A DNA stretch of 64,000 nucleotides. It comes from Archangium lipolyticum (GTDB lineage Bacteria > Myxococcota > Myxococcia > Myxococcales > Myxococcaceae). Positions 3,897-13,967 of the stretch are shown here, one piece after another. The stretch lies in NCBI RefSeq assembly GCF_024623785.1, contig NZ_JANKBZ010000007.1, positions 124,001 to 188,000 on the forward strand, read 5' to 3'. Within the stretch, counting starts at the first letter, position 1, and each line of letters begins with the position of its first letter. The translations under genes and the position numbers were made by a program. The notes below the pieces were generated by a model. The model saw nothing but the letters and a program-made list of their open reading frames with translations, did no database searches and was not told where the DNA came from.

Positions 3897-4913
3897 TCAG
3901 TACACGTTGTACTTGCGGCGAAGCGCCTCGTGCTCCTCCGCGTTGCGCGAGGGATGCAGGCGCCGCTCGGCATCGTGGAGGTAGTACCAGAACTCGCTCG
4001 GCTTGGGCTCGAGCGCGGCCTGGAGCGACTCGACCGAGGGGGCGCCGATGGGACCCGGCGGCAGCCCCTTGCGGTGGCGCGAGTTCCACGGGTCCGAGGT
4101 GTCACGCAGGCGCTGGAGGAACGCCAGCCGGTCGTTCCACTCGGCCAGCTCGTAGCGGGAGGTCGCGTCCACGCCCAGGGGGAAGCCCTTGTCCACGCGC
4201 TTCCAGAGGATGCCGGCCACCAGCGGACGCTGGGCGGGCACGGGCTCCTCGCGCTCCAGCATCGAGGCCATCACCACCAGCTCGTGGAGGCTGCGCCCGC
4301 TGCGCTCGATGGCCGCCTTCTGGGGGGCGTAGAAGCGCTCGGCGAAGGTGTCCAGCTGGCGCTGGATGAGCTCCTCCACCTTGAAGGCGCCGGGCACCAC
4401 CCGGTAGGTCTCGGGGTAGAGGTAGCCCTCGAGCGTGGTCCGGGGCAGGGTGAAGGGCGCGGTGAACCGCTCGGGACGGCTGGCGGCGGCGATGTAGGCG
4501 CCGGGCTTGATGAGGCCCGCCGTGGCCAGGGCCGCGTCGGTGTCGCGCAGGCGCCAGCCCTCGACGATGACGAAGGGGACGTCATCGGGGATGGGGTTGC
4601 CCTCGAGCGCGGTGGCGATCTCCGCCATCGTCATTGACGGGCTCACCGCGTGGCGCCCCGCCTTGGGGGCGAACTGGCCGCGGCGGAAGAGGTGCCAGCG
4701 CCAGAGCCGGGCATCGCGAATCAGGCCCTGTGACGCGAGCTGGGGGCCCAGGCCGCGTCCGGTGACGCCCTTGGACACGGTGAACTCCACGGTGGGAGCA
4801 CCCGGCGGGGCCGCGGCCTGCTTCACCTGGCTCTCCGCCCAGAAGAATGTACCGGCAACCGCGCCCGCTGCGAGGACGACGAGCACCAGGAGGACGAGAA
4901 GAATGCGCTTCAT
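3897..4913 (-). CDS. mltG: Endolytic murein transglycosylase MltG
   Basis: Inner-membrane lytic transglycosylase that cuts nascent glycan strands and so sets peptidoglycan chain length. One N-terminal membrane helix (residues 3-25) anchors a periplasmic part with a LysM-like region followed by the YceG fold. The catalytic Glu lies near residue 220 in ASMLEREE, the equivalent of ASIVEKE in E. coli MltG. The downstream WKRVDKGFPLGVDATSRYEL and GLPPGPIGAPS blocks are also typical. Start is ATG at 4913, preceded directly by an in-frame GTG. The length (338 aa) is normal. It is divergent from the PilT-like gene across about 220 bases. Confidence 0.94.
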   Translation of the reverse strand: MKRILLVLLVLVVLAAGAVAGTFFWAESQVKQAAAPPGAPTVEFTVSKGVTGRGLGPQLASQGLIRDARLWRWHLFRRGQFAPKAGRHAVSPSMTMAEIATALEGNPIPDDVPFVIVEGWRLRDTDAALATAGLIKPGAYIAAASRPERFTAPFTLPRTTLEGYLYPETYRVVPGAFKVEELIQRQLDTFAERFYAPQKAAIERSGRSLHELVVMASMLEREEPVPAQRPLVAGILWKRVDKGFPLGVDATSRYELAEWNDRLAFLQRLRDTSDPWNSRHRKGLPPGPIGAPSVESLQAALEPKPSEFWYYLHDAERRLHPSRNAEEHEALRRKYNVY

Positions 4914-5133
4914 CACCGGTGCAGGTTAGCACCCGCGCGCTTCCGCGAGGCCCAAAGTCGACGGCTCACTTCGCCTGCCGGACAGGAGGCGGGCTGGGAG
5001 GGGCACGGACAAAGTGTCGCTGGGCTCGCCGACAACCGGACATTCCGGCGGGCCCGTGCGTCGTTCTCCCTGGACAGGCCGGCCCGACAGGCCCGGCATG
5101 CGGGTTGCTCGGAGGCTCGGCAGGAGGGAAATC

Positions 5134-8697: not shown

Positions 8698-9786
8698 TCA
8701 CGGCCCGCGGGGCAGGCCCCTGCCGGTGGCGAGGTACACGGCGAAGCTGCCCAGCCAATGTCCGCCCTCGTAGTGCGCACCCGTCACGGCCTGGAGCCCC
8801 GCCTCGCGGTGGAGCTTCGCCGTGGCCCGGAGCGAGCGCAGCCGCTTGTCCTGGGGCGGCAGGCCGGCGGCGATGCCCTCCAGCATCCACGCCCGGCTCA
8901 GGTTCAGTCCATCCAGGTGCGCCAGCTTCGGATCCGTCGGATCGGTCACCACCGCTGGCGCGAGCCAGGCCGTCGAGCCGTTGGAGGGAATGTCCGGCAG
9001 GAAGTCCCGCAGCCACGTGGCGAAGCGGTCCGGAGGGAGGATGCGTCTCATCAGGTCCGCCTCGGCGATGCACGGCGAGAGGAAGTCCTGGCCGCCGGGC
9101 TCGTACGCGAGCGGGCACCGGCGATCCTTCCCGTAGAACGCGTCCACCCGCGCCTTCAGCAGCTGCTCCATGTCGCTGTCCCGGGCCTGCCTCGCCCAGT
9201 CCAGGATGAGCCCGAAGGCGAAGGCCGTCTGGTCGTGCTCGCCCACGCGGATGGGCCGAGAGAGCTTGGGGAGCCACTCGCGGATCCTCCCGGCCGCGCG
9301 CTCCTCCAGGGGCTTCAGCGTGGCCGCCCATTCGCGTGCCTGGGGCTCATCCCACTCCCTCAGCTCCGCCGCGAGCTGGAGCAGCCAGGCCAGACCATAG
9401 GGCCGTTCGAAGGAGACCCGGCCCGGTCCGCTCAGGTAGCGCGTCTCCGCCTCGATGTTCGCGGGCGTCAGGCTCCTGGCCACCGCCGCCCGGGCGCGCG
9501 GAGTGAAGGGCGCCTCCGGGAACGTCCGCGCCAGCCGCACGAGCAGCCAGTGCCCGTGGACGGAGGAGTGCCAGTCATAGCAGCCGTAGAAGGCGGGGGT
9601 GAGCTCGCGGGGCGGGCGCGCATCCGCGTCCGTGCTCAGCACGTGAGCGATCTTGTTCGGGTATTCCCGATGGACGCACGTGAGCGCGAGCTCCGCGAAG
9701 CGCGCGGCGGCGTCGGCGCCGAAATCAGGAGGAGGGGGCGTGCTGGCGGTGACCATTCCGTAGCTCAGCAGCAGGGGGAGGAGCAT
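8698..9786 (-). CDS. DUF2891 family exported protein
   Basis: A 362-aa protein with a signal peptide (MLLPLLLSYGMVTAS). It matches DUF2891 in composition and motifs: FYGCYDWHSSVHGHW near residue 65, YLSGPGRVSFERPYGLAWLLQL, and GHWLGSFAVY close to the C terminus. The family is predicted to be an alpha/alpha toroid resembling glycoside hydrolases or cyclases, but no function is known. ATG at 9786 is the only start giving a signal peptide. It lies 47 bases downstream of the prenyltransferase gene on the same strand and could be co-transcribed with it. Its convergent neighbour, the Sel1 gene, ends seven bases away. Confidence 0.8.
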   Translation of the reverse strand: MLLPLLLSYGMVTASTPPPPDFGADAAARFAELALTCVHREYPNKIAHVLSTDADARPPRELTPAFYGCYDWHSSVHGHWLLVRLARTFPEAPFTPRARAAVARSLTPANIEAETRYLSGPGRVSFERPYGLAWLLQLAAELREWDEPQAREWAATLKPLEERAAGRIREWLPKLSRPIRVGEHDQTAFAFGLILDWARQARDSDMEQLLKARVDAFYGKDRRCPLAYEPGGQDFLSPCIAEADLMRRILPPDRFATWLRDFLPDIPSNGSTAWLAPAVVTDPTDPKLAHLDGLNLSRAWMLEGIAAGLPPQDKRLRSLRATAKLHREAGLQAVTGAHYEGGHWLGSFAVYLATGRGLPRGP

Positions 9787-9833
9787 GCGGCGACTGTAGC
9801 ACCGCGCTTCCGGAGCCGGCCGTCTCCCGCGAG

Positions 9834-11660
9834 CTACCGCACCAGCCTGAGGCCGAGCGTGAGCGGCCACAGCGGGCCGGCCTCCCGCGCCTTCAAGGCA
9901 TACGCCAGGAGATCCTCCCCCATGCCGGCGAAGTGGGTGTTGACCTCGTCCACGAGCGACAAGGCTCGCTGCTCCTCCTCTGGCGTCCACGTGTGCGAGG
10001 AGATCACCGCCCGGATTCCCTGCCCGCCCATCTTCTCGTGCGCGTCCTCCAGATCCTGGTGGGGCTGGCCGAAGTAGTAGAGCGGCTTGCCCGTCTGCGC
10101 CGTGAACTCCCGGCCCGCCTGCCGGAACCGGCTGAAGCCCACGTCCGAGGCGGCCTCGACGGCCTCCAGGATAACCAGGCGCAGGATGGGGGTGGCCTCG
10201 CGCACCATGCTCATGAGCTTGTTGATGAGCTGGCGCGTCTTCGCGCAGTGGTCTCCCCAGAGCAGGCTCAGGGAGTCCACCAGGTCCACGCGACCGTTCA
10301 CCCCCAGGGTCTCCACGTCCCGCATGAAGTACTCCCAGTGCTGCTCGTCCACGGTGGTATGCGCGTTGAGGATCCGTTGAATCTCGTCCCGCGAGGAGAG
10401 ATCCCTCAGGCCGAACCTCATGAGGTCCGAGAAGCCCATGGTCATGGGCGCCAGGCAGGGCGCGAAGCCGAGCCGCTGCCGGGGATCGATGCTGCGATCC
10501 TCGACGAAGGCGAACAGGGGCAACCGGGCCAGTTCCTGCTTCTTGGTGTCGATGTACTCCAGGACCCGATTCATGTGCGGCCTCGTCGTCGTGGCTCCGT
10601 ATGCCTCTGGAGCCAGATAGAAGGTGGTGCGAGCCTGTCTCCGCTGGTGCCGCAGGGAGGCCCACTGGACGAGCCCCCGCCCCGCTTCGAGCGGGCGATC
10701 CGAGATGGCGGCCAGCACCTGTTCGAAGAGGCCCCGATCCCTTGGCTCGAGGATCTGGCGGATGGCTCGTACCGAGTGCAGATCATCCACCACATAGGCG
10801 CGCAGTGGGAAGTGGAGGGTGGAGCTGAAGGGGCGCGCGGCGTTGTCGGAGGTGAAGGCGAAGCAGGTCAGCGGCGGCCGGGCGGTGAAGGGCCCCTCTC
10901 CCCCGCTCAGTGCCCGGCAGAACGAGCGTGGCTCGCCCGGCATGTACTCTCCTCCCCGGGACAGCACCTCCTCGAGGTCCTCCACGGTGGCGTCCTGGTG
11001 CGCCACGTAGAGCTTCACGCGCGCCGCCGGGCCCGCCGACAGGTCCAGCGAGAAGTAGACGAGCCGGTCCTTCGGGCCGCGGCGCATCACCTCCTGGGAG
11101 ATGAACCGCCAGGAGCCCGTGAAGCCGAGCCGGTCCAGTGCTTCCCGGGTGAGCTCCGACTCCTGCCCGGGCCCGCGTGCCAGCGGATTCAGGTACACCT
11201 TGAAATCCGGTTTGCCGCCTGCCTTCAGGCCGAACGCATGCCACAGGGAGAAGCTCGCCCCGGGGTTGCGCGGCTCGAAGAGCTCCCTCACACGCTCGAG
11301 CCGGTCCAGGGTGATGCCCGAGTGGCGGCGCAATCGCTCGCACAGCGCCAGCCCATCCACCCAGCTCGACTGAAGCGTGGTGGGCTCTCCCTGCGCCTCC
11401 ACCAGGAAGCGCACCTCGGGGGTACGTCCATCCAGCGCGAGCGACAGCTCATAGGGCGAGTGGTCATCGGTGATGTCGGAAGCCCAGACCGGCTCCGTGC
11501 CGATGCGCCGTTGTCCCCAGGGGCTCGTCAGCAGCTCGAAGAACTTCAGGACCGTTCGCGTGTCCTCTTCCGTGAAGCCAACGGCGCGGCACATCGCCGT
11601 GAGCTTCGCCGAACCAAACGCATGGAAAGTCTGTGACGCAATGCGCGCGCGCGCCTGCAT
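9834..11660 (-). CDS. DMATS-type aromatic prenyltransferase fused to heme-oxygenase-like domain
   Basis: Two domains in 608 aa. Residues 30-355 match the ABBA-fold DMATS indole prenyltransferases: the catalytic Glu71 in SPYELSLAL, Arg84 in EVRF, and the diphosphate-binding Lys/Tyr pairs at FKVYLNP (153-159), VKLYV (215-219) and TTFYLAPEAYG (345-355). Residues 365-608 resemble the TenA/PqqC/heme-oxygenase-like helical fold seen in diiron oxidases and N-oxygenases. Candidate metal ligands are H434, E439, H441 and D448, then H534, E538 and H541 in GQPHQDLEDAH. This suggests one polypeptide that prenylates an indole or aromatic amino acid and oxidises it. The second-domain call rests on motif resemblance. 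Start ATG at 11660 has GGAG upstream. It follows a 2OG oxygenase gene 110 bases upstream. Confidence 0.78.
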   Translation of the reverse strand: MQARARIASQTFHAFGSAKLTAMCRAVGFTEEDTRTVLKFFELLTSPWGQRRIGTEPVWASDITDDHSPYELSLALDGRTPEVRFLVEAQGEPTTLQSSWVDGLALCERLRRHSGITLDRLERVRELFEPRNPGASFSLWHAFGLKAGGKPDFKVYLNPLARGPGQESELTREALDRLGFTGSWRFISQEVMRRGPKDRLVYFSLDLSAGPAARVKLYVAHQDATVEDLEEVLSRGGEYMPGEPRSFCRALSGGEGPFTARPPLTCFAFTSDNAARPFSSTLHFPLRAYVVDDLHSVRAIRQILEPRDRGLFEQVLAAISDRPLEAGRGLVQWASLRHQRRQARTTFYLAPEAYGATTTRPHMNRVLEYIDTKKQELARLPLFAFVEDRSIDPRQRLGFAPCLAPMTMGFSDLMRFGLRDLSSRDEIQRILNAHTTVDEQHWEYFMRDVETLGVNGRVDLVDSLSLLWGDHCAKTRQLINKLMSMVREATPILRLVILEAVEAASDVGFSRFRQAGREFTAQTGKPLYYFGQPHQDLEDAHEKMGGQGIRAVISSHTWTPEEEQRALSLVDEVNTHFAGMGEDLLAYALKAREAGPLWPLTLGLRLVR

Positions 11661-11770
11661 GGGTCACTCCCGGCGAACGACTTCGGAGAGGTAAGGCCCG
11701 CAACCGGACGCGGAGTATCCTTACATCAGAAATGGTTTTCGGGGAGTGGGTTCGTGCTCACACGTCCGGT

Positions 11771-12883
11771 CTACGTCTCCGAGCTCCCCGCGCGCATGCG
11801 GTTGAGCCGATCGTAGTGCCGGTAGCCCAGCTGGGAGAGTGCGCTCTCGGGCGCCAGCCCAATGTCCACCAGTGTCTTGATGTCGTAGGTGCCCGTGAGC
11901 ACCGGCGGTGCGTAGTCACGGATTGCGGCAGGCGTACGGAACTTTTCCAATGGGAAGAGTATGTGACTGGTGTGCACGTGCATGAAGTGGGCGGCGGACT
12001 GACGCGACCAGCCTGGAACACCGGGGGCGGTGATGACGTGCGGTGTCGCGAGAAACGTACCGCCTGTGAGGATTTCCAACTGTTGACCCACCTGCGCGAC
12101 GATGCAGCCGGCTGGAGCCGTGCCGCGCACCATGTGTCCCTTTGGGTCCTCCGGCGTCGCGCGCGTGCGGAGGTAGAGCCCGCTCTTGTCATCGGGCCGC
12201 GGGGCGGGGCGCCCGCTCGGATCGAGGAAGCGCCCACCGGGAAGGAGTGTGAGCAGGTTGAAGTCGGTGTGCTCCTCGCCCCAGACGATGTTTGTGTTCA
12301 CCTGGGAGGCATTGAGGGGCAGGTAGTGCAGCGTGCGCGTGACGTGCGGGGCGCGTTGGCACAGGTCGGCGAGCGTGTGCTCCGGCAGCCCGAGCGCCAC
12401 CGCCGCGCCGCGCAGCAGCTTCAGGCCCGCCTCGTGTAGGGAGCGGCCGAGCGTGAGGAAGCCTTCCTGGAAGTACGGAGGCGCGTCGGGGGGCCACACG
12501 TTCTCCGGGTAGAGCTGGGGGAACTCGAGCGCGGAGGTCTCGTCGGCCGGGTAGGGCGCGACGAAGTAGCACTCCTTGAAGTCCGGCTGACCACTGCCGG
12601 CGACGGCCACCTCGGTGTTCGGAGGCGTCCAGCCGCGCTGGTACCAGATGTCCGCGCGGCCATAGGGCCTCTTGGCCGCCTCCGGGCGGGCGATGAACGC
12701 GGTGAACGCGTCATAGAGGCGCTCGAGCGCCTGGGGGTCGATGCCGTGGTTCTTCACGTACACGAGGCCGAAGACGCCGAAGGCCTCGCGGAGCGCCGCC
12801 GCGCCGCGCTCGACGCGGGTGGGGTCGCCCGACGAGAGGTCGGCGAGGTCGACAGTGGGGATGTTCATCGGGGTCTCTGCCAT
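11771..12883 (-). CDS. Isopenicillin N synthase-family 2OG-Fe(II) oxygenase
   Basis: Soluble non-heme iron dioxygenase of the IPNS/gibberellin-oxidase type (DIOX_N then 2OG-FeII_Oxy). The N-terminal motif is IPTVDLADLS ... GLVYVKNHGI. The iron ligands are His and Asp of EEHTDF and the distal His of ATPHVI. The 2OG-binding Arg-X-Ser is shifted to SRQSAAHF, so the co-substrate pocket may be atypical. Such enzymes hydroxylate, desaturate or cyclise small molecules. ATG at 12883 (MAETPMNIP) is preferred over the longer ORF; an ATG at 12868 is also possible and ribosome sites are weak. It lies upstream of the prenyltransferase fusion on the same strand, which suggests a joint pathway. Confidence 0.87.
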   Translation of the reverse strand: MAETPMNIPTVDLADLSSGDPTRVERGAAALREAFGVFGLVYVKNHGIDPQALERLYDAFTAFIARPEAAKRPYGRADIWYQRGWTPPNTEVAVAGSGQPDFKECYFVAPYPADETSALEFPQLYPENVWPPDAPPYFQEGFLTLGRSLHEAGLKLLRGAAVALGLPEHTLADLCQRAPHVTRTLHYLPLNASQVNTNIVWGEEHTDFNLLTLLPGGRFLDPSGRPAPRPDDKSGLYLRTRATPEDPKGHMVRGTAPAGCIVAQVGQQLEILTGGTFLATPHVITAPGVPGWSRQSAAHFMHVHTSHILFPLEKFRTPAAIRDYAPPVLTGTYDIKTLVDIGLAPESALSQLGYRHYDRLNRMRAGSSET

Positions 12884-12962
12884 GGGGGTGCTGGTGTACC
12901 TCGCCTTCCCCCTCGGGAGGAACATGCTCGCAGTGGAGCGGCCCCGCGACGGCCCCGGGCCC

Positions 12963-13967
12963 TCACTTCGGCCAGAACGTCACCGCTCGCGCGCCCTCCG
13001 AGCTCCAGACGAGCTTCCTGCCCCGGTAGAGGCGTGGATGCCCACCGGAGTCGGCGAGCGATATGAGCAGGAAGGGCCCTTGGACCTGGAGGCTGACCAG
13101 GTCGTTCTCGCGGAAGGTGTGGCCGGGGAGTGGGACGGCCTTGCCCTTCTCCACCCTCCGGAGCAGGCCGGTCGCCAGCAGCTCGTCACCGAAGGGCGTG
13201 CCCCAGAGCGCCAGCGTGTAGCCGCCGCGCTCGAGCGAGGTCCACTCGCCATCGGGTTGCTCCGGGGTGAGCTGGTACAGCTGGTCGAGCAGCACGTCGT
13301 CGTCGAGCTCCTTGGGGGCGAAGCGCGGATCGAGCACGCGGTTCGAGCGCTCGCCAAGCTGCTTGCGGAGCGCCAGCACGCCGGTTCCGGAGGACTCGTC
13401 GGTCGCCTTCGAGTCGAGCCGTGTCCACGCACCGTCCTGGAAGGCGAAGGCATGGGCCATCAGTGGAGGGCCCGCGCCGTCCGTGACCTTCTGCATGGAG
13501 AGCCCGAGCAGCCGGCCCCCGGCATCGAACCCGAACTCGATGAGCTCGCCCAGCGGGGGCAGGGGAAGCTCCTCGACGGCGCCCGTCGCGAGCTCCACGA
13601 GGAACAAGCGGTCCCGGAAGGCGGGGGAGGGGAACTTCTCGGGGAACGTGGGCCTGCCCACCACGGGCGCGCTGACGCCGCCGCGCCAGAACCGCGCCGC
13701 GCCTCGCTTGCCGTCCCGGCTCAGCGCCGTTGCTCCGCCCTGACAGTCCACCGCGAGCTTCGCGAGGACCTGGCGAGCGGCCGAGACGGGGTCGAACCGG
13801 GCCCACTCGCAGCCCTCACCCGCGGGTTCGAGCAACGAGACGGTGGACCCGGTCGCGCGGAAGACGGGGGCCGCCGGTTCCGTCCGGGAGGGGGGGCCTT
13901 CCTCGGCGTGGGCCGGAGTCAGGGGCACGAGCAGGAGCGAGGCGAGCAGCGGGAATCCTGGCGACAT
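12963..13967 (-). CDS. Exported protein of unknown function
   Basis: A 334-aa protein with a signal peptide (MSPGFPLLASLLLVPLTPAHA). The mature part is beta-rich and punctuated by short turns: FRDRLFLVELATGAVEEL, SLERGGYTLALWG and PRLYRGRKLVWSSEG. This could reflect a propeller or WD-like fold, but no family was recognised. There are two cysteines (GCEW, VDCQ). It is the first gene of the minus-strand run that continues, 79 bases later, into the 2OG oxygenase, and it is divergent from the histidine kinase. A link with the oxygenase/prenyltransferase cluster is possible but unproven. Confidence 0.6.
   Translation of the reverse strand: MSPGFPLLASLLLVPLTPAHAEEGPPSRTEPAAPVFRATGSTVSLLEPAGEGCEWARFDPVSAARQVLAKLAVDCQGGATALSRDGKRGAARFWRGGVSAPVVGRPTFPEKFPSPAFRDRLFLVELATGAVEELPLPPLGELIEFGFDAGGRLLGLSMQKVTDGAGPPLMAHAFAFQDGAWTRLDSKATDESSGTGVLALRKQLGERSNRVLDPRFAPKELDDDVLLDQLYQLTPEQPDGEWTSLERGGYTLALWGTPFGDELLATGLLRRVEKGKAVPLPGHTFRENDLVSLQVQGPFLLISLADSGGHPRLYRGRKLVWSSEGARAVTFWPK

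Follow-up and report, generated by a model that had tools for sequence, protein, structure and literature searches.

The window analysed here is a stretch of 64,000 nucleotides from the 12.6 Mb genome of the soil myxobacterium Archangium lipolyticum. On its minus strand lies an open reading frame (9834..11660, stop codon included) whose 608-aa product joins a DMATS tryptophan prenyltransferase domain (residues 1-358, 10587..11660) to an AetD-like heme-oxygenase-like diiron (HDO) domain (residues 362-597, 9870..10577) through a flexible linker of about ten residues (356-365, 10566..10595), delimited by the junction alignment with two related genomes (G002 and G005) and by pLDDT values below 50 at residues 359-363. 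This reading frame carries all the motifs on which the initial annotation had relied, namely E71, FKVYLNP (153-159), VKLYV, TTFYLAPEAYG (345-355), HTTVDEQHW (434-442) and GQPHQDLEDAH (531-541), and the proposed fusion of a DMATS with a heme-oxygenase-like diiron domain was borne out both by sequence (phmmer) and by fold (Foldseek, VIA). As the same 608-aa frame is found at 90% identity in an independent genome (G003), an assembly, sequencing or frameshift artefact is excluded as its source, and the fusion is real. Comparison of the two orthologues gave dN/dS values of 0.26 for the DMATS and 0.36 for the AetD domain, indicating purifying selection on both. The AlphaFold2 model of the fusion (30-row alignment) has a mean pLDDT of 90.7, confidence being low only at residues 359-363 of the linker and 603-608 of the C-terminal tail, and a pTM of 0.66, so the relative placement of the two domains in it is to be taken as provisional.

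Directly upstream on the same strand lies an IPNS-type 2OG-Fe(II) oxygenase gene (11771..12925, likely start 12883; DIOX_N E = 4e-18), and directly downstream a gene for a DUF2891 protein (8698..9786; Pfam E = 2e-137), separated from the fusion by about 110 and 47 bases, respectively, in the order and orientation previously annotated. Beyond the oxygenase gene, also on the minus strand, an open reading frame encodes a hypothetical protein with an N-terminal signal-like sequence (12963..13967), which the gene order of relatives identifies as the ancestral neighbour of the oxygenase gene.

The two domains and their active sites

The N-terminal half matches Pfam Trp_DMAT (PF11991) at residues 20-310 (E = 9e-17, 61.9 bits against a cut-off of 25), and also NCBIfam TIGR03429 (E = 2e-33), at 116 bits under the 164-bit cut-off of that family. 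In a phmmer search of the PDB with residues 19-363, the best match was 6ZRX, the 6-DMATS of Micromonospora olivasterospora (E = 3e-52), followed by IptA (E = 1.5e-46) and PriB, with the Streptomyces coelicolor 5-DMATS (E = 1e-37) ranking below them, the solved 6-DMATS enzymes scoring 181 and 162 bits vs 133 bits for the 5-DMATS. In the model, residues 6-360 adopt the ABBA prenyltransferase fold, were matched to DMATS by Foldseek as well, and superpose on 6ZRY with a VIA Z of 45.7 and 1.9 Å over 347 residues. Residues E71, K154, Y156, K216, Y218, Y348 and Y354 are kept in the alignment with 6ZRX and solved bacterial DMATS; we take E71 to be the catalytic glutamate and the lysines and tyrosines to bind diphosphate. 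The bacterial 6-DMATS enzymes (6ZRX; IptA, 7W8U; PriB, 5INJ) share with this domain the ABBA fold, the catalytic Glu and the Lys/Tyr residues at 31-33% identity, but the solved enzymes are stand-alone proteins, whereas the DMATS of the window is fused to an HDO. Judged from these similarities, the DMATS half most likely prenylates free L-tryptophan with DMAPP, and C6 would be the favoured position for the single reason that the closest similarity is to 6-DMATS.

For the C-terminal half, the only significant PDB chains were those of AetD (phmmer, E about 1e-38 to 2e-38), while the generic Pfam family Haem_oxygenas_2 remained under its cut-off (E = 0.043). Structure prediction followed by fold search returned a heme-oxygenase-like fold that matches AetD: residues 362-596 of the model superpose on AetD with a VIA Z of 31.2 and 1.6 Å over 233 residues at 30% identity, and with a Foldseek TM of 0.92. 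Thus, of the earlier comparison with SznF, RohS, PqqC and TenA the heme-oxygenase-like diiron fold stands, but the match is specifically to AetD by sequence, Foldseek and VIA alike, and the generic HO/TenA/PqqC assignment was replaced accordingly. On sequence and model, the domain is classed specifically as AetD-like, a member of the Trp nitrile synthase family.

AetD is the nitrile synthase of the aetokthonotoxin pathway in Aetokthonos hydrillicola (PDB 8TWW, 8JI3), an iron enzyme that converts tryptophan to an indole nitrile. Its Fe1 is bound by H79, H172 and E176 and its Fe2 by D76, E140, E176 and H179, Y167 hydrogen-bonds the substrate carboxylate, F44 and I146 clamp the indole, and S214 lies near C7 (PMC10654658, PMC11611611); F48 sits where other HDOs carry a Glu ligand (PMC11611611). 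The fused domain has the seven-helix heme-oxygenase-like fold with a 3His/3carboxylate ligand set, in the same D-x2-H / E / H-x3-E-x2-H pattern as AetD. Its predicted ligands D438, H441, E502, H534, E538 and H541 align with AetD D76, H79, E140, H172, E176 and H179, and the substrate tyrosine is retained as Y529 (AetD Y167), these seven residues lying within 10038..10349 of the minus strand. F410 corresponds to AetD F48, a hydrophobic residue of auxiliary helix 2 in place of the extra Glu ligand. With the six ligands, Y529 and F410 all present, both the iron site of the fusion and its amino-acid anchor look complete. A Trp-type substrate is expected here too. The pocket shares A142 with AetD (A504) and differs in three places, with M406, G508 and F577 standing where AetD has F44, I146 and S214; A504 and G508 are encoded within 10137..10151 on the minus strand. 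A further difference is that AetD occurs on its own and takes bromo-Trp as substrate, whereas the version in the window is fused to a prenyltransferase and is only about 30% identical to it.

Neighbouring genes and the origin of the fusion

The initial annotation regarded the oxygenase, the fusion and the DUF2891 gene as one compact cluster, a reading for which the common strand, the short gaps and the retention of this order in G003 would speak. The whole surrounding region is syntenic in G003, however, so the conserved order is uninformative in this respect. Of 96 Myxococcaceae genomes, about 55 carry a copy of the 2OG oxygenase at 79-85% identity, and nearly all of these have no DMATS; in G001, G002, G004 and G005 it lies between the same Sel1-repeat and hypothetical-protein orthologues (the G005 contig ends before the latter), and neither a DMATS-AetD nor a DUF2891 gene was found beside it at that locus in these four genomes. 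The DUF2891 gene is conserved (83-84%) in G002, G004 and G005 as well, but at unrelated loci, where the orthologue of the window gene at 3897-4916 lies close to it. From their distribution across the family and from the related genomes compared, we therefore reject a cluster with the 2OG and DUF2891 genes; as a biosynthetic unit the three genes are scarcely credible, and we judge the 2OG oxygenase, the DUF2891 protein and the hypothetical protein not to be part of the system. Co-transcription of the fusion with the oxygenase gene is possible. Since both flanking genes occur elsewhere without a DMATS, the fusion seems to be a lone insertion at a rearrangement breakpoint.

An overlapping-gene counterpart of the fusion is present in G002 and G005, the two Archangium genomes with separate genes (G005, like G001, is of the same genus as the window genome). 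There, a DMATS gene (55% identical) and an AetD-like gene (45-47%) overlap at the same junction, the TGA stop of the former lying within the ATGA that begins the latter. In the window and in G003, a net 10-base difference before the overlap takes this stop out of the DMATS frame, and the former HDO start codon persists as Met363 within the linker. The closest sequences to the AetD domain of the fusion are nevertheless stand-alone genes in G018 and G062 (61-62%), not the G002/G005 pair (45-47%), so that the ancestor was an arrangement of this overlapping kind but not with certainty this very pair. Where relatives have the overlapping genes, the window has one covalently joined protein, which may keep the two active sites close to each other.

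DMATS and HDO domains in other genomes

A Pfam search of 195 Myxococcota genomes gave 16 DMATS loci in 9 genomes, a count that leaves out two distant DMATS-like matches in G081 (31-33% identity, below the Pfam threshold). An HDO-type domain is fused to the DMATS in 13 of them: two have the DMATS-AetD order, six an AetD-like domain N-terminal to the DMATS, one another HDO at the N-terminus (L043), and four a C-terminal PF14518 HDO (L041, L042, L044 and L045). The other three are stand-alone DMATS genes with an overlapping AetD-like gene (G002, G005) or with an AetD-like gene in the locus (G053), so that every Pfam-detected DMATS of these 16 loci is fused to, or shares its locus with, an HDO. 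Among 395 actinomycete genomes, the 18 DMATS loci examined contained no fused HDO. At one of these loci a distant HDO gene, about 27-31% identical to the myxobacterial AetD-family enzymes, lies directly downstream of the DMATS (L135, 5632-7478, minus strand); an apparent HDO beside another (L136) overlaps a P450 and was discarded. A cross-phylum search found AetD-like proteins in Phormidium, Mycobacterium sp. KBS0706 and Burkholderia multivorans, and in Hamadaea one that matched only in part; no DMATS was detected in the genomes of these carriers. Within the same family as the window genome, a distant AetD-family HDO is conserved in most genomes of one large genus (g23; e.g. G050, G060, G027 and G166), where this enzyme family is thus near-core.

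The six DMATS with an N-terminal AetD-like domain (L033, 8161-10065; L034; L035; L036; L037; L040, 7940-9784) form a single clade in the tree of these domains. In the alignment, in which the third core helix is uncertain, Y167 is missing from every one of these domains, together with two or more of the six iron ligands, while a moderate-confidence model (pLDDT 75) keeps the AetD fold (Foldseek E = 2e-7 to AetD). Because of the lost ligands and tyrosine, these domains are probably not catalytic but pseudoenzymes, perhaps serving in docking.

The window genome itself encodes a second DMATS-HDO protein (G000:C15; L041, 7898-9814, minus strand), only 40% identical. Together with its relatives L042 and L044 and with L045 it resembles the fusion described here in having an N-terminal DMATS and a C-terminal HDO, and differs in that the HDO part falls into PF14518 (E about 1e-10 to 1e-15) and that the DMATS are only 37-40% identical to that of the window. 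In L044 the gene overlaps an O-methyltransferase gene, and in L045 (8297-12919) the fusion is followed by a cytokinin-dehydrogenase-like FAD protein, of the family found at L046 (11962-13482), and a P450-like gene.

Both kinds of enzyme are already known. The initial annotation knew of no pathway with this fusion, and our literature search agrees, having found no description of myxobacterial DMATS or of HDO-prenyltransferase fusions in open-licence papers. A review of March 2026 singles out SznF as a characterised HDO unusual in its extra domain, a cupin, 'unlike other characterized HDOs' (PMC13108848). SznF is comparable in that an HDO domain is fused to a second catalytic domain within one small-molecule pathway, but its partner is a cupin, its substrate is an arginine and its ligand set is 3H/4C.

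Possible reaction of the fused enzyme

We propose that the fusion is a bifunctional enzyme that would convert Trp to dimethylallyl-Trp (C6 favoured) and then to a prenyl-indole-3-carbonitrile on one protein, a reading to which we give slightly better than an even chance. In the first step, the DMATS domain would move the dimethylallyl group from DMAPP onto the benzene ring of free L-tryptophan, with C6 as the likeliest carbon. Solved DMATS enzymes hold free Trp via its amino-acid part, and for this reason prenylation is the step most likely to come first. The AetD-like domain would then take the prenyl-tryptophan, possibly channelled from the first active site, with its amino and carboxylate groups on Fe1, and use O2 to remove two side-chain carbons, giving the nitrile with glycolate as by-product. 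If the chemistry is that of AetD, a peroxodiiron species would abstract a hydrogen from the beta-carbon, and a rearrangement and a second oxidation would lead to the nitrile; for AetD this mechanism is itself proposed, not established (PMC11611611). The prenylated, oxidised indole suggested earlier is supported as the probable product.

It is also conceivable that the same bifunctional enzyme releases a prenyl-skatole, or that its main product corresponds to the shunt product of AetD, a prenyl-indole-3-carbaldehyde; we consider this rather unlikely. SktA, an HDO that likewise acts on a substituted Trp and for which no fusion is reported, converts 5-bromo-Trp to 5-bromoskatole and carries T139, T142 and F214 when compared with AetD (PMC13108848), and AetD itself gives 5,7-dibromo-indole-3-carbaldehyde as a shunt product (PMC11611611). 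At the product-related positions 139, 142 and 214, the alignment places V501, A504 and F577 in the fusion, M, A and S in AetD, and T, T and F in SktA. The fusion therefore agrees with SktA, and not with AetD, at position 214, but has V and A instead of the two threonines, and its DMATS-linked relatives have A142 (or G).

Six AetD-like enzymes have A142 and G146 in common in the alignment (the two fusions, G002, G005, G018:C1 and G062:C137), and five of them are physically linked to a DMATS; the sixth, G062:C137, is close to the end of its contig and has no DMATS within reach, in a genome with three DMATS genes. At position 142 the unlinked AetD-like homologues carry T (in one case H), and at position 146 A, L or F. 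The G053 enzyme, whose DMATS is at a distance of about 4.5 kb, combines G142 with A146 instead. As the six sequences represent only two supported lineages in the tree, the link between these residues and the DMATS is a correlation with few independent points. Since I146 clamps the indole in AetD, a glycine at this position makes room for a bulkier ring, and A142/G146 could reflect space for the prenyl group and not the type of reaction. An identity of about 30% to AetD does not fix the reaction of the fused HDO, and this identity, the pocket enlarged at G508 and M406 and the very diverse reactions of the HDO superfamily (PMC13108848) leave room for a new reaction on prenyl-Trp, such as an oxidation or cyclisation involving the prenyl group, or N-oxygenation. 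We regard such a reaction as improbable, as the full AetD-type anchoring set (Y529, F410 and the six ligands) points to the amino-acid end as the part that reacts.

The two domains could further act on separate substrates, for instance the DMATS on a peptide or another indole and the HDO on plain Trp, with the fusion being incidental. AetD accepts Trp as well as 5-Br-Trp (PMC10654658), and AetD-like genes also occur in Archangium without a DMATS. However, fusion or adjacency of DMATS and HDO is repeated in several architectures, and the pocket changes track DMATS linkage, so that independent functions seem very improbable.

Gene context elsewhere bears on the sequential reaction that we favour. 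Besides the AetD-like gene, the DMATS loci of G018 and G053 encode a StyA-type flavin monooxygenase, a protein of about 200 aa of no assigned family, and PilZ proteins, whereas those of G062 and G065 have a tryptophanase and a P450 in place of AetD. A tryptophanase, which strips the Trp side chain, where an AetD-like gene sits elsewhere, fits an AetD-like enzyme that acts on the prenyl-Trp side chain, as we infer from this context. In Archangium the StyA-like gene is common without a DMATS too, and is thus not a firm partner. In the window, no StyA-like monooxygenase, PilZ protein, ~200-aa protein, P450 or tryptophanase was found.

Tentatively, and with rather less confidence than in the enzyme itself, we suggest that the fusion may represent a two-step pathway on one polypeptide to an unknown class of metabolites, the prenyl-indole-3-carbonitriles, and that the Myxococcaceae fusions may constitute a family pairing active or dead HDO domains with prenyltransferases for catalysis or docking. 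Nitriles are rare in nature, and the new route that AetD opened to them comes from one known pathway; AetD-like chemistry would thereby be placed in myxobacteria and joined to a prenyltransferase. The fusion is a natural candidate for a one-protein biocatalyst and suggests that there is a class of prenylated indole metabolites yet to be described, and the fused, overlapping, adjacent and dead-domain arrangements offer a natural series on the linking of two-step enzymes.

Two further observations were made on the loci compared. In L035 and L037, a DMATS lies beside a tryptophanase, a P450 and a StyA-like monooxygenase, likely a prenyl-indole pathway. In nearly all Myxococcaceae loci examined, including 8 of 8 extra test loci, the immediate neighbour of the AetD-family HDO gene is a member of the ~200-aa family; its members occur at L040 (10338-10934, minus strand), L050, L049, L053, L046, L035, L037, L055, L056, L057, L060 and L141-L148. 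Where scanned, they had no Pfam or NCBIfam match, and a PilZ protein is often adjacent. They share a C-terminal H..CR.RG..SCTY motif, reminiscent of V4R-type sensor domains.
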